Source: Actinomycetota bacterium (GTDB lineage: Bacteria > Actinomycetota > Acidimicrobiia > Acidimicrobiales > UBA8592). Taken from it: DNA of 64,000 bases. The notes below the pieces were generated by a model. That model was not told the DNA's origin. It ran no database searches and was given only the letters and a program-made list of their open reading frames with translations. Positions 26,169 through 30,211 of this stretch are shown one piece after another. The stretch spans positions 1-64,000 of the forward strand of contig CACFFD010000001.1 in the NCBI GenBank assembly GCA_902565595.1, written 5' to 3'. Numbering within the stretch: position 1 is the stretch's first letter; every line of letters begins with the position of its first letter. Made by a program: the position numbers and the translations under genes.

Positions 26169-26298
26169 CCGTTTCGGAATGTGACGATTGGGTTCTGTGC
26201 AATCAGTGCCCGTGAACCGAGTCAGGGCCGGAAGGCAGCAGCTCTCAGCGGAATCACAGATGTGCCGCAGGTAGCCTGATCGTCACTTTCGGGAACGG
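26169..26298 (+). ncRNA. ffs: Signal recognition particle RNA (bacterial small/4.5S type)
   Basis: The conserved SRP RNA apical core GTCAGGGCCGGAAGGCAGCA (26221-26240), with its GGAA tetraloop, binds Ffh. It is flanked by long complementary arms: GTGACGAT (26181-26188) pairs with ATCGTCAC (26279-26286), and the outer part of the arm (26169-26179 with 26288-26298) pairs with a few mismatches. The whole is one hairpin of about 130 nt, slightly longer than the usual 95-115 nt; the outer limits are estimated from pairing. It lies directly upstream of dnaX, a common location. Confidence 0.92.
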
Positions 26299-26377
26299 AT
26301 GTTTTAATTTGTAGAAATATTTGCGTAGAACTCCGATTACTTCACCTGATGACCTATAGCAAGACTAGGATTCCTAC

Positions 26378-28018
26378 ATGGCATATCAATCCCTTTATCG
26401 TCGGTACCGGTCAGGCCGATTTAATGAATTGGTTGGACAAGAACATGTTGTCACCGCATTGAAGAATGCAATCGCTGATAACCGTGTAGGTCACGCCTAC
26501 CTATTTAGTGGGCCAAGGGGAACTGGGAAGACCAGCACCGCCCGGATACTTGGAAAAGCGTTGAACTGCACCTCTCTTGAAGATGACGGTGAGCCATGTT
26601 GTAAATGCGATTCCTGCCTCTCTTTTGCTGAGGGCATTTCCTATGACCTCCATGAATTAGATGCTGCCTCGAATAACGGGGTTGAGGCTATTCGCGACCT
26701 TATTTCAAAAGTTGCGCTTGGTTCACCTGGACGAACGAAGGTGTACATACTTGATGAAGTCCATATGTTGACATCTGGCGCTGAGAACGCATTACTTAAG
26801 ACCTTAGAGGAACCTCCTAGCCATGTTGTTTTTGTACTTGCAACAACTGAACCACAAAAGGTTGTTTCAACAATCCGAAGTAGAACGCAGCACTTTGAAT
26901 TCGAATTGATTCCCGCGAACCTTTTAGGAGATCACCTTCGCTGGGTAGCTGATGATGCTGGTCTTACTGTGACCGACGAAATGATCGACTATGTCTTACG
27001 AGTAGGTGGCGGTTCAGCTCGTGACGCCTTATCTGCATTAGAACAAACACTTGCTAGAGGTGGAACTCCCGATGATGACACAGCTGTCGACGAGGTTCTC
27101 GAAGGAATAGTCCTTGGAGATCCAAACGTGGTCATAAGCGGTTTAAGTAAGGCGATTCAATCAGGCCGTTCTCCTCGAGTCATAGGAGAAATTCTTATAG
27201 ATCGACTTCGAAATACCTTTCTTACAGCTATGGGAAATTCACCCGACCACCTTTCTGATCATCAAGTAGAAATTTCGAAGAATCTTTCTGAGCGGATGCC
27301 ACTAGCCACAATAACCAGGTCACTTGAAACCATCGGAAGCGCTCTGGTGGGGATGCGTCAATCTCCCGATCCCAGAATTGACCTTGAGGTAGCTGTCCTT
27401 AAACTTTCACATCCGAAACTACAAACTGATTCTGACGTGGTCTTGAGTCGTTTGGAAAGGATTGAGCGGCACCTACAAGAGCTCGATGGCCCTTTCATAA
27501 GTAGCTCTTTACCTGCGGATGAAACCACTTCAGCTATAGAAAATGAAGATACATCTCCTCTGCCGAACCAAACCACGCCTCCAGTTAAGAAAGTTGACCC
27601 TATCGAAGAAAACCTCCCTTCTTTGCAAGAAGTGGAATCAGTATGGCCTGATATTAAGAAAAGCTTATCTGGAAAGGCAAAGGCACGTTTTAGCGGAGGT
27701 AGGTTCATATCTGTTGACACTGATGGAGTTGTTTTTGCCTTGCCTAATGAAATCCACCGTGATCGGTGCGCCGAGTGTCTTAGTGAAGTTGAAGAGTCAC
27801 TGTCAGAAAAATTACATCGGAAAACTAGGGTGAATCTTATTGTTGATTCCGGAGGGGCAGAGACAAGGCAGCAACAAGAGAGGCAGACTTCGGCAACCAT
27901 AAATAATGATGAGGATCTAGATCTGGATTCTCTAGACGATGCTGAGGCAACAGCAGGCGATGGACTTTCCTTAGTCGTAGATAGCTTTCCAGGTGCAAAG
28001 ATCGTCGATGATGAATAA
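26378..28018 (+). CDS. dnaX: DNA polymerase III gamma/tau subunit
   Basis: This 546-residue clamp-loader ATPase has Walker A GPRGTGKTSTAR (about 45-56), four zinc-binding Cys (C64, C74 or C75, C77, C80), the DEVHML Walker B (about 125-130) and the SRC-type motif as STIRSRTQHF. Domain III (about 220-350) follows, then an acidic linker and a tau-like C-terminal region from about 400. It loads the beta sliding clamp and holds polymerase cores together. No slippery frameshift heptamer was obvious. It lies 80 bases after the SRP RNA and 45 before recR, without the usual ybaB between. Confidence 0.93.
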   Translation: MAYQSLYRRYRSGRFNELVGQEHVVTALKNAIADNRVGHAYLFSGPRGTGKTSTARILGKALNCTSLEDDGEPCCKCDSCLSFAEGISYDLHELDAASNNGVEAIRDLISKVALGSPGRTKVYILDEVHMLTSGAENALLKTLEEPPSHVVFVLATTEPQKVVSTIRSRTQHFEFELIPANLLGDHLRWVADDAGLTVTDEMIDYVLRVGGGSARDALSALEQTLARGGTPDDDTAVDEVLEGIVLGDPNVVISGLSKAIQSGRSPRVIGEILIDRLRNTFLTAMGNSPDHLSDHQVEISKNLSERMPLATITRSLETIGSALVGMRQSPDPRIDLEVAVLKLSHPKLQTDSDVVLSRLERIERHLQELDGPFISSSLPADETTSAIENEDTSPLPNQTTPPVKKVDPIEENLPSLQEVESVWPDIKKSLSGKAKARFSGGRFISVDTDGVVFALPNEIHRDRCAECLSEVEESLSEKLHRKTRVNLIVDSGGAETRQQQERQTSATINNDEDLDLDSLDDAEATAGDGLSLVVDSFPGAKIVDDE

Positions 28019-28063
28019 GGAGAATTTTAACCGAGCTAATTCTGATCAGTTTGGAGAGGGTTT

Positions 28064-28672
28064 GTGAGTATCTATACGCCAGCAGTTCAAACGCTTATAG
28101 ATGAATTAGGAAAGTTGCCCGGAGTAGGCCCTAAGTCAGCTCAACGTATTGCCTTCCATCTGGTGAAGTTAGCTGAAGAGGATGCGATCCGGCTTTCAAC
28201 TGCTATTCGTGAAGCGAAGGAGAAAGTACGATTTTGTGAGAAGTGCTTCAACATGAGCGATGAAGCAATTTGTGAAATTTGTGCTGATTCTAGACGGGAC
28301 CCTACGCAGGTCTGTGTAGTTGAAGAACCAAGAGATATTGTTGCTGTTGAAAGAACTCAGGAATATAAGGGCTTCTACCATGTTCTACAAGGCGCGATTA
28401 ACCCCATTGATGGAATAGGTCCTGAGCAGCTCCGAGTAAAGGAATTGCTCGCACGGCTTCAAGAAGACCCTATTTCAGAGGTGATTCTATGCACGAATCC
28501 CAATATTGAAGGTGAAGCAACCGCCATGTACCTTGCTCGTTTGTTGGAGCCTCTAGGTTTGTCAGTTACCAGAATTGCGAGTGGCTTACCTGTTGGTGGT
28601 GATCTTGAATATGCGGATGAGTTAACTCTTGGGAGAGCTCTGGAAGGTAGACGTCAAGTCGAGGTCGATTAG
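28064..28672 (+). CDS. recR: Recombination mediator RecR
   Basis: This 202-residue protein has an N-terminal helix-hairpin-helix ([19 protein letters not shown], about 11-29), a Cys4 zinc finger (CEKC...CEIC, about 58-74) and a Toprim domain with VVEEPRD and [15 protein letters not shown]. It works with RecF/RecO to load RecA at gapped DNA. The length is normal for the family. GTG 28064 is preceded by GGAGAGG with about five bases spacing. A structured, probably transcribed stretch and an intrinsic terminator follow the stop. Confidence 0.94.
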
Positions 28673-28675
28673 CTT

Positions 28676-28850
28676 TCAAAGGAATCTTTGAGAAACACTC
28701 ACGTGACTGACGAGTGGTGGTTCTCGTCAGTCACCTGCGGTGGGAGGGGTGCATCGCAGTTGTTTGAGTGTTGCATTTTGTCCAGAAGAATTGGGGATAT
28801 CTTTCACTCGAAGAGCGTATCTTTAAAGAGGAAAAACCTCTTTTTATTTA
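28676..28850 (+). ncRNA. Predicted structured RNA downstream of recR (three-way junction, unassigned)
   Basis: No gene fits this gap of about 350 bases (28673-29020). The first half folds well. An 8-bp helix P1 (AACACTCA 28694-28701 with TGAGTGTT 28765-28772) closes a junction holding a perfect 12-bp hairpin P2 (GTGACTGACGAG 28703-28714 with CTCGTCAGTCAC 28723-28734, loop TGGTGGTT) and a 5-bp hairpin P3 (CTGCG 28735-28739 with CGCAG 28755-28759) with a G-rich loop. A small hairpin (CAAAG/CTTTG, 28677-28690) precedes it and an intrinsic terminator (28825-28848) follows. It may be a small RNA or the structured recR 3' end. Known families I could recall (6S, tmRNA, RNase P, riboswitches) do not fit. 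The strand is inferred from the terminator. Confidence 0.5.
28825..28848 (+). terminator. Intrinsic terminator after the recR region
   Basis: AAAGAGG (28825-28831), loop of five A, CCTCTTT (28837-28843), followed by TTATTT. This is a textbook rho-independent terminator for transcripts from recR or the structured RNA. The remaining bases to 29020 hold nothing else I can identify, apart from a short GACAA/TTGTC inverted repeat near 28900. Confidence 0.85.
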
Positions 28851-29020
28851 GCCCTGTGGGTGAAACCAACTCTAAAGTTACATTTATGTTACATTACGAC
28901 AATTATGTTGTCAAATAGGCTAATTTAGCGAGTTTAAAGATCGCAAACCTAAAGAATCCATTGTATTTAGACGTAATATTTGCGTTATCTTCACTTAAGA
29001 GATGTGAAATAGTGGTCTAG

Positions 29021-30211
29021 TTAACCCACCGTCTTCAAAATTAATGCATCGCCTTGTCCGCCACCACCACACAGGGCGGCAGCTCCGATTCCACCGCCTT
29101 GGCGACGAAGTTGATATGCAAGCGTGAGCGCTAGACGGTTTCCAGACATCCCGATCGGATGACCCAGAGCAATCGCACCCCCGTTAACGTTTACCGCAGA
29201 ATCGTCAATTCCCAGATCTGACATTGAGGCAACAGAGACAGCAGCAAATGCCTCGTTAATTTCAAAGAGATCAATATCTGATAACGTCAGCTGACCTTTC
29301 GCGAGAGCATCTGAAATTGCACGAGATGGTTGCGTGAGCAAACTAGTATCTGGTCCCGCAACTTGACCATATGAAACCAACTCAGCCAAAGGTTGGGTAG
29401 AAAGTCGATCAGCTACATCAAGAGAGGTCACCACAACAGCAGAACCACCATCAGATATTTGACTAGCATTCCCAGCTGTAATGTTCCCGCTTTCCGAAAA
29501 AGCAGGGCGGAGCTTTTGGAGTCCCGCTAAATCAGTTCCAGGTCGAACACCTTCATCATGCTCAAATACAATAGGTTCTCCACGTCGCTGTGGGATTTCA
29601 ACTTGAATGATCTCTTCGGATAAATTCCTATTTTCAATTGCTGAAGAAGCTCTTTCATGAGATTTTTGCGCAATGATGTCTTGACTTTCACGAGCAATAT
29701 CAACAGAAGCGGCGTATCTTTCCGTCCCCTCGCCCATAAGTTCTTTCTCTAAGGCACAAAACAATCCATCATGCTGAATGACATCCATCATTTCAGCATT
29801 TCCATACTTGTAGCCTCCTCGGGCCTTAGGTACGAGATAAGGAGCGTTTGTCATCGATTCCATTCCTCCAGCAACAACAATTTCTGCATCGCCATTTTCG
29901 ATCATTTGTGCAGCTAAATAAATTGCATTCAACCCAGACAAACAAACCTTGTTAATTGTGATTGCAGGTGTGCTCATCGGTATCTCAGCGGAACAGGCAG
30001 CTTGACGTGCAGTCACTTGACCAGTACCAGCTTGAAGAACCTGCCCCATGATCACGTAATCCACCATGTCTGGCGAAAGCCCAGCACGATCTAGAGCACC
30101 AGAGATGGCGATACCACCCAAGTCGGATCCAGAAAACGAAGACAGAGCGCCAGAAAGCTTACCTATCGGAGTTCTAGCTCCCGCAAGGATTACTGTATTT
30201 TCCATTGTCAC
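29021..30211 (-). CDS. Acetyl-CoA C-acyltransferase (thiolase)
   Basis: This 396-residue thiolase has the acyl-accepting Cys90 (NKVCLSGLNA), the NEAFA segment, the active His in GGAIALGHPIGMSG and the second Cys in ALCGGGGQGDAL. The length and the GHPIGMSG motif fit the biosynthetic/degradative acetyl-CoA acetyltransferase group, common in fatty acid oxidation or acetoacetyl-CoA formation. It is divergent from a methylmalonyl-CoA epimerase gene; a palindrome suitable for a regulator lies between them at 30259-30276. Confidence 0.93.
   Translation of the reverse strand: MTMENTVILAGARTPIGKLSGALSSFSGSDLGGIAISGALDRAGLSPDMVDYVIMGQVLQAGTGQVTARQAACSAEIPMSTPAITINKVCLSGLNAIYLAAQMIENGDAEIVVAGGMESMTNAPYLVPKARGGYKYGNAEMMDVIQHDGLFCALEKELMGEGTERYAASVDIARESQDIIAQKSHERASSAIENRNLSEEIIQVEIPQRRGEPIVFEHDEGVRPGTDLAGLQKLRPAFSESGNITAGNASQISDGGSAVVVTSLDVADRLSTQPLAELVSYGQVAGPDTSLLTQPSRAISDALAKGQLTLSDIDLFEINEAFAAVSVASMSDLGIDDSAVNVNGGAIALGHPIGMSGNRLALTLAYQLRRQGGGIGAAALCGGGGQGDALILKTVG

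Follow-up and report, generated by a model that had tools for sequence, protein, structure and literature searches.

A small RNA gene, read from the minus strand, occupies the gap separating recR from a thiolase gene in the window, by which we mean the whole 64,000-nucleotide stretch of Acidimicrobiales DNA that was analysed, and its existence is well supported. We consider it probable that this RNA has a promoter of its own, belongs to an order-wide family, and carries a C-rich loop which most likely pairs with ribosome-binding sites and lowers translation; its transcription, action in trans, base pairing and repression are things that we infer. The recR-linked RNAs are best read as a new family of small RNAs with C-rich loops. 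The features of the locus are the following.

28064 to 28672, plus strand: recR, convergent with the minus-strand RNA.
28689 to 28879, minus strand: predicted small RNA of about 190 nt, with z -6.2 as a whole, kept in 11 of the 11 genus genomes with recR.
28690 to 28695, minus strand: 3' U-rich end UUUCUC, weak in the window (UUUUUU or UUUUU in the relatives L010-L012).
28694 to 28772, minus strand: three-way junction, P1 (28772-28765/28701-28694) around P2 and P3, from the MFE structure and the alignment of relatives.
28703 to 28734, minus strand: P3, a perfect 12-bp hairpin with loop AACCACCA, the conserved core of the family and the base of the minus-strand terminator.
28735 to 28759, minus strand: P2, a hairpin with the C-rich loop AUGCACCCCUCCCAC (CCCCUCCC at 28749-28742).
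28787 to 28873, minus strand: 5' domain, a long imperfect stem GAGUUGGUUUCAC.../GUGAAA...CCAAUUCUU, predicted by RNAalifold from five close relatives.
28825 to 28850, plus strand: intrinsic-terminator-like hairpin and T-run, for recR transcripts.
28886 to 28891, minus strand: -10 box TAACAT, inside a conserved GTAATGTAACATAAATGTAAC stretch.
28909 to 28914, minus strand: -35 box TTGACA (10 of 12 consensus matches together with the -10 box, 17-nt spacer).
29021 to 30211, minus strand: acetyl-CoA acetyltransferase (thiolase) gene, 5' of the RNA and codirectional with it, the usual second neighbour.

Three helices had been placed behind recR by a preliminary description made from the letters of the DNA, namely P1 (28694-28701/28765-28772), P2 (28735-28739/28755-28759) and P3 (28703-28714/28723-28734), and all three are present exactly where they were put. 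Together they form both the MFE and the centroid structure of the minus strand from 28774 to 28689, which is far more stable than chance: its energy is -36.4 kcal/mol, shuffled sequences average -17.4 (z -6.35), and 0 of 200 shuffles were as stable. The fold of the whole RNA consists of the 5' stem and the three-way junction, and the stretch first described corresponds to its 3' domain. The same description took the RNA to be a plus-strand transcript 3' of recR, ending at an intrinsic terminator at 28825. The helices are inverted repeats and hence possible on either strand, there is indeed a terminator-like site at 28825, and against dinucleotide shuffles the segment reaches z -4.0 on the plus strand and z -6.4 on the minus strand; however, the plus-strand MFE structure keeps P2 and P3 only and replaces P1 by other pairing, and the hairpin at 28825 is eroded among relatives, being almost lost in L012 and absent in L032. 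Also against it is the alignment of P3 in the genus, which on the minus strand holds 110 Watson-Crick, 13 G-U and 2 A-C cells, while read as the plus strand the 13 G-U cells would become A-C mismatches, with only 2 G-U cells. The same asymmetry appears in the order-wide family described below, with 150 G-U against 13 A-C on the RNA strand. A plus-strand RNA is in our view extremely improbable, and the minus strand is taken as the RNA strand because of this asymmetry together with the promoter. Since the hairpin with its T-run at 28825-28843 lies on the plus strand and is the only terminator-like site of the region, it is the candidate terminator of recR, whereas the conserved RNA ends elsewhere.

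A single promoter-like site is present in 28600-29030, and it lies on the minus strand (TTGACA-N17-TAACAT, 28914-28886); a plus-strand promoter was sought in the same interval and none was found. From the position of the -10 box the RNA is predicted to start at about 28879, both transcript ends being predictions; the lengths predicted for relatives run from 75 to 200 nt. The TTGACA-N17-TAA portion is invariant in all 11 genus copies, and a search pattern derived from family promoters matches once in the 64-kb window, both strands counted, at the RNA gene, with a background of 0.015 per 330 nt. The promoter of the order-wide family, from 41 aligned copies, reads TTGAC/TTGTC-N17-TAAYRT followed by AANNGCAAC; the window RNA has a promoter of this TTGAC-N17/18-TAAYRT form, and the promoters of the genus and of the order have a GTAATGTAAC core in common. 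Most family members repeat a motif TGTAAC / GTAAYGTAAC-NN-GCAAC at the RNA promoter, between about -10 and +10; in the window it is located at 28870-28914 on the minus strand, and it could be an operator.

Within the genus the RNA goes with recR. Eleven of 18 genomes hold recR, and the element stands 10-30 nt behind it in every one of the eleven; in the remaining seven recR, the RNA and the adjoining thiolase gene are all absent, a joint absence which indicates a missing contig. Strong matches of R1, a covariance model of the RNA 3' domain, were obtained in these 11 genomes only, with E-values from 1e-12 to 1e-18 and each beside recR, and the element is single-copy in its own genome, by which a dispersed repeat or mobile element was ruled out. 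Common to the 11 on the minus strand are the promoter, a leader, a C-rich stretch and a hairpin of 10-12 bp with an invariant CACC-(A)ACUCG. CCCCUCC is likewise invariant in 11 of 11 RNAs, lying either in the P2 loop or unpaired. The three-way junction is the MFE structure of the minus strand in the window, but P1 and P2 are confined to one subclade (the window, L010-L012 and L032). Neither helix is present in six relatives (L013, L014, L016, L017, L019 and L020), which retain P3 together with CCCCUCCUCC; in them UUUCCCCUCCU is exposed without P2 and P3 is lengthened by CCG/CGG. The 5' domain is mostly invariant among the five close relatives, its stem being an RNAalifold prediction, and a different stem stands at this position in the other subclade. 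A U-run follows P3 in most relatives, the one of the window being short (UUUCUC).

Compensatory changes, by which the preliminary description proposed to judge the fold, are only partly borne out at this level. P1 does not vary in the five genomes that carry it, compensation in P2 is limited, and the variation in P3 is mainly G-U exchange, with 98.4% of the cells in the genus alignment paired; it is the order-wide hairpin of this locus that covaries strongly. On both strands the longest reading frames differ in position and length among the 11 relatives, so that none is conserved, which agrees with the absence of an ORF noted before and rules out a protein-coding stretch.

At the level of the order, the recR gap of four GC-rich relatives, located by position, contains a hairpin with the loop GGUC-NN-GNCCGCCCGC-NCCC. 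A model built from these four copies without any recR information (R2) was run over 248 genomes of the order and matched in 22, and the confirmed loci are nearly all beside recR. The refined covariance model, R3, at a threshold of E<=0.01, matches at least 65 of 397 order genomes in 34 genera, a count which is a lower bound because the stricter filters applied in searches over 40 genomes lose weak copies; the genomes searched are mostly metagenome assemblies. In 58 of the 66 R3 loci recR lies no more than about 1.5 kb away, the RNA facing it in 54 of the 58, and wherever the thiolase gene is visible (37 loci) it is codirectional with the RNA. The predicted helix is supported by covariation: in a plain MAFFT alignment not fitted to structure, compensatory changes affect 20 of the 24 predicted pairs, and in the model-fitted alignment two-sided changes number 67 where 22 would be expected (0 of 500 shuffles). 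The C-rich apical loop contains CCGCCCGC in 49 of the 66 copies, and in copies of family f35 (e.g. L139, L171) a single hairpin follows the promoter immediately. A further C-rich run in the leader was rejected as a family feature, its frequency (9 of 27, with 4.3 expected and a maximum of 9) not exceeding chance. Outside the order R3 gave no match in a class sample of 198 genomes and a phylum sample of 346, only order members being matched.

In four members (L121, L187, L189 and L190) the RNA lies on the strand of recR, unlike the other members with recR in view, and the RNA gene has therefore survived local rearrangement. This bears on the reading that the element is an elaborate bidirectional terminator or insulator between convergent recR and thiolase, without a separate RNA function. 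The two genes are convergent, a strong hairpin lies close to both gene ends, a plus-strand terminator is present at 28825, and a hairpin with a U-run between two gene ends is what intrinsic terminators of convergent genes look like. But the recR-linked RNA differs from such terminators in its own promoter, which lies 3' of the thiolase stop and is conserved across genera, in its whole structured leader, in its invariant loop sequence and in the G-U asymmetry favouring one strand; it also persists where it lies on the strand of recR, as in the four members just named, and away from the thiolase gene. An insulator of this kind is very unlikely as compared with a separate RNA gene.

The relation of the genus RNA to the order-wide RNA is argued from position. 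R3 gives no match at E<=10 to the window and ten same-genus loci, and R1 none to the order-wide copies. A single R1 match outside the genus falls below 1e-3 (L086, in G135), and it did not resemble the RNA; the R3 match of G135 lies elsewhere, beside recR. That neither model detects the other group is the point in favour of two unrelated small RNAs which by chance share an intergenic gap. Yet the gap, the strand, the neighbour order, the promoter type with its GTAATGTAAC core, the terminal hairpin beside recR and an exposed C-rich motif are common to both, the window RNA adjoining and facing recR and running codirectionally with thiolase as order-wide copies do, and L015 and L121, from two other genera of the same family, carry the order-wide form. 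A chance coincidence is thus unlikely on the evidence, and orthology is suggested by position, strand, promoter and general layout. Because L015 and L121 have the order-wide form, it is simplest to suppose that in the AT-rich genus the RNA was replaced or diverged rapidly. In L034 (G035) R3 matches nothing in the recR gap, which still has a C-rich leader and, on the same strand, TTGACA-N18-TAACAT; it possibly holds a third divergent form of the RNA.

No known family accounts for the RNA. Rfam gave no match in the window at the gathering cut-off or at E<=10, and a known Rfam family is ruled out, which upholds the earlier statement that a structured RNA without a known family follows recR; the RNA is conserved in related Acidimicrobiia. 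The nearest likeness is to 6C RNA (RF01066; B11 or ncRv13660c in mycobacteria), likewise a small actinobacterial RNA with its own promoter, having hairpins with C-rich loops of which the last is the terminator and a loop capable of pairing with ribosome sites rich in G, as is predicted for the recR-linked RNA. A 6C RNA, however, has two hairpins with about six or more C per loop, while the loops of the window are AUGCACCCCUCCCAC and AACCACCA, its longest C run is four, and the first hairpin is absent in one subclade of the genus. RF01066 was not found at E<=1 in the genome of the window (G000) or in L013, L015, L016, L018, L029, L030 and L034, and where the order does have true 6C RNAs (L039, L040) the loci are different ones. 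That the recR-linked RNA is a true 6C was accordingly ruled out by the covariance model and the loop composition; it would at best be 6C-like in its working and is not classed as a 6C RNA. A few genomes of the order carry a true or near-true 6C RNA away from recR (L039, L040 and L041, in G072, G045 and G087), and G045 has both a 6C RNA above the cut-off and a recR-linked RNA. 6S RNA and the 6S-like actinobacterial RNAs Ms1 and scr3559 are similar in being about 190 nt long, single-copy and highly structured, but the recR-linked RNA is without the long rod with a central bubble, the open-promoter mimic, and has no Rfam match.

A trans-acting small RNA is suggested because the gene has its own promoter, a terminal hairpin, no ORF and an invariant C-rich loop. 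On the proposed mechanism, the RNA would be transcribed alone from the sigma-70-type minus-strand promoter, and the transcript would end at the strong hairpin followed by the U-run, leaving the constant C-rich stretch exposed in a hairpin loop. Acting in trans, this loop may then pair with mRNAs at their G-rich ribosome-binding sites, CCCCUCC masking GGAGGGG-type sites by analogy with 6C/B11, and translation of the paired mRNAs would be reduced as with mycobacterial 6C/B11. The C-rich loops of 6C/B11 repress translation by pairing with ribosome-binding sites, as mutations of loop and target in M. abscessus showed (PMC10470900). An aside in the preliminary description, that the C-rich minus strand could pair with ribosome sites, has turned out to be its better reading, and complementarity of the C-rich loops to such sites is possible from their letters, although the order-wide CCGCCCGC is not an exact anti-Shine-Dalgarno sequence.

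The search for targets leaves room for another function of the loop. Among 58 gene starts in the window, GGAGG stands upstream of three and GAGGGG of none. Pairing of the loop with the start regions of recR and thiolase is good in four close species and lost in the others, and regulation of these neighbours in cis was rejected on that account. GGAGGGG-N(2-11)-ATG occurs 18-35 times per genome, about 1.5x the reversed-pattern control overall, and a Rieske-type oxygenase is the only gene with a GGAGGGG start region in four or more genomes. In several same-genus genomes (L298, L324, L356, L398) a Rieske-type oxygenase gene has GGAGGGG directly before its ATG; this start is a candidate target, and only a lead, Rieske-type genes being plentiful and GGAGG nothing unusual in a start region. 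On another reading the minus-strand RNA gene is real but its loop would bind a protein (Rho, RNA polymerase, or a cold-shock or other C-binding protein), the RNA being a decoy or regulator of that protein and mRNA pairing not its function. A conserved ribosome-site target was not established among the window starts, the neighbours or the genome-wide GGAGGGG starts, the apical loop CCGCCCGC of the order family is more constant than antisense to varied ribosome sites needs, and the RNA is single-copy with its own promoter. Against this, the motif shifts between lineages and still stays C-rich (CCCCUCC, CCGCCCGC, CCCCCCGCCC), which suits G-rich sites, the 6C/B11 precedent is one of pairing (PMC10470900), and Rfam gives no match to 6S or other protein-binding RNAs. 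Protein binding as the function seems to us rather unlikely, and pairing with ribosome sites remains the preferred reading.

More tentatively, and with some doubt, the order-wide RNA might be a global translational regulator of Acidimicrobiales-type bacteria, a counterpart of mycobacterial 6C/B11 whose loop (CCGCCCGC, CCCCCCGCCC or CCCCUCC) drifts with the ribosome-site sequences that it controls. The Acidimicrobiia branch deeply and are mostly uncultured, and their small RNAs seem to have received little description; searches of an open paper library returned none. In this group, where true 6C RNAs turned up only here and there, the recR-linked RNA offers a specific candidate for a main riboregulator, and with its stable recR/thiolase address, strong covariation and promoter it can be called from genome sequence in dozens of genera.

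The gene order on the other side of recR also varies. In the window the SRP RNA, dnaX and recR are consecutive at 26186-28672 and no ybaB separates the latter two, whereas in L018 and L029 a YbaB-like ORF does.
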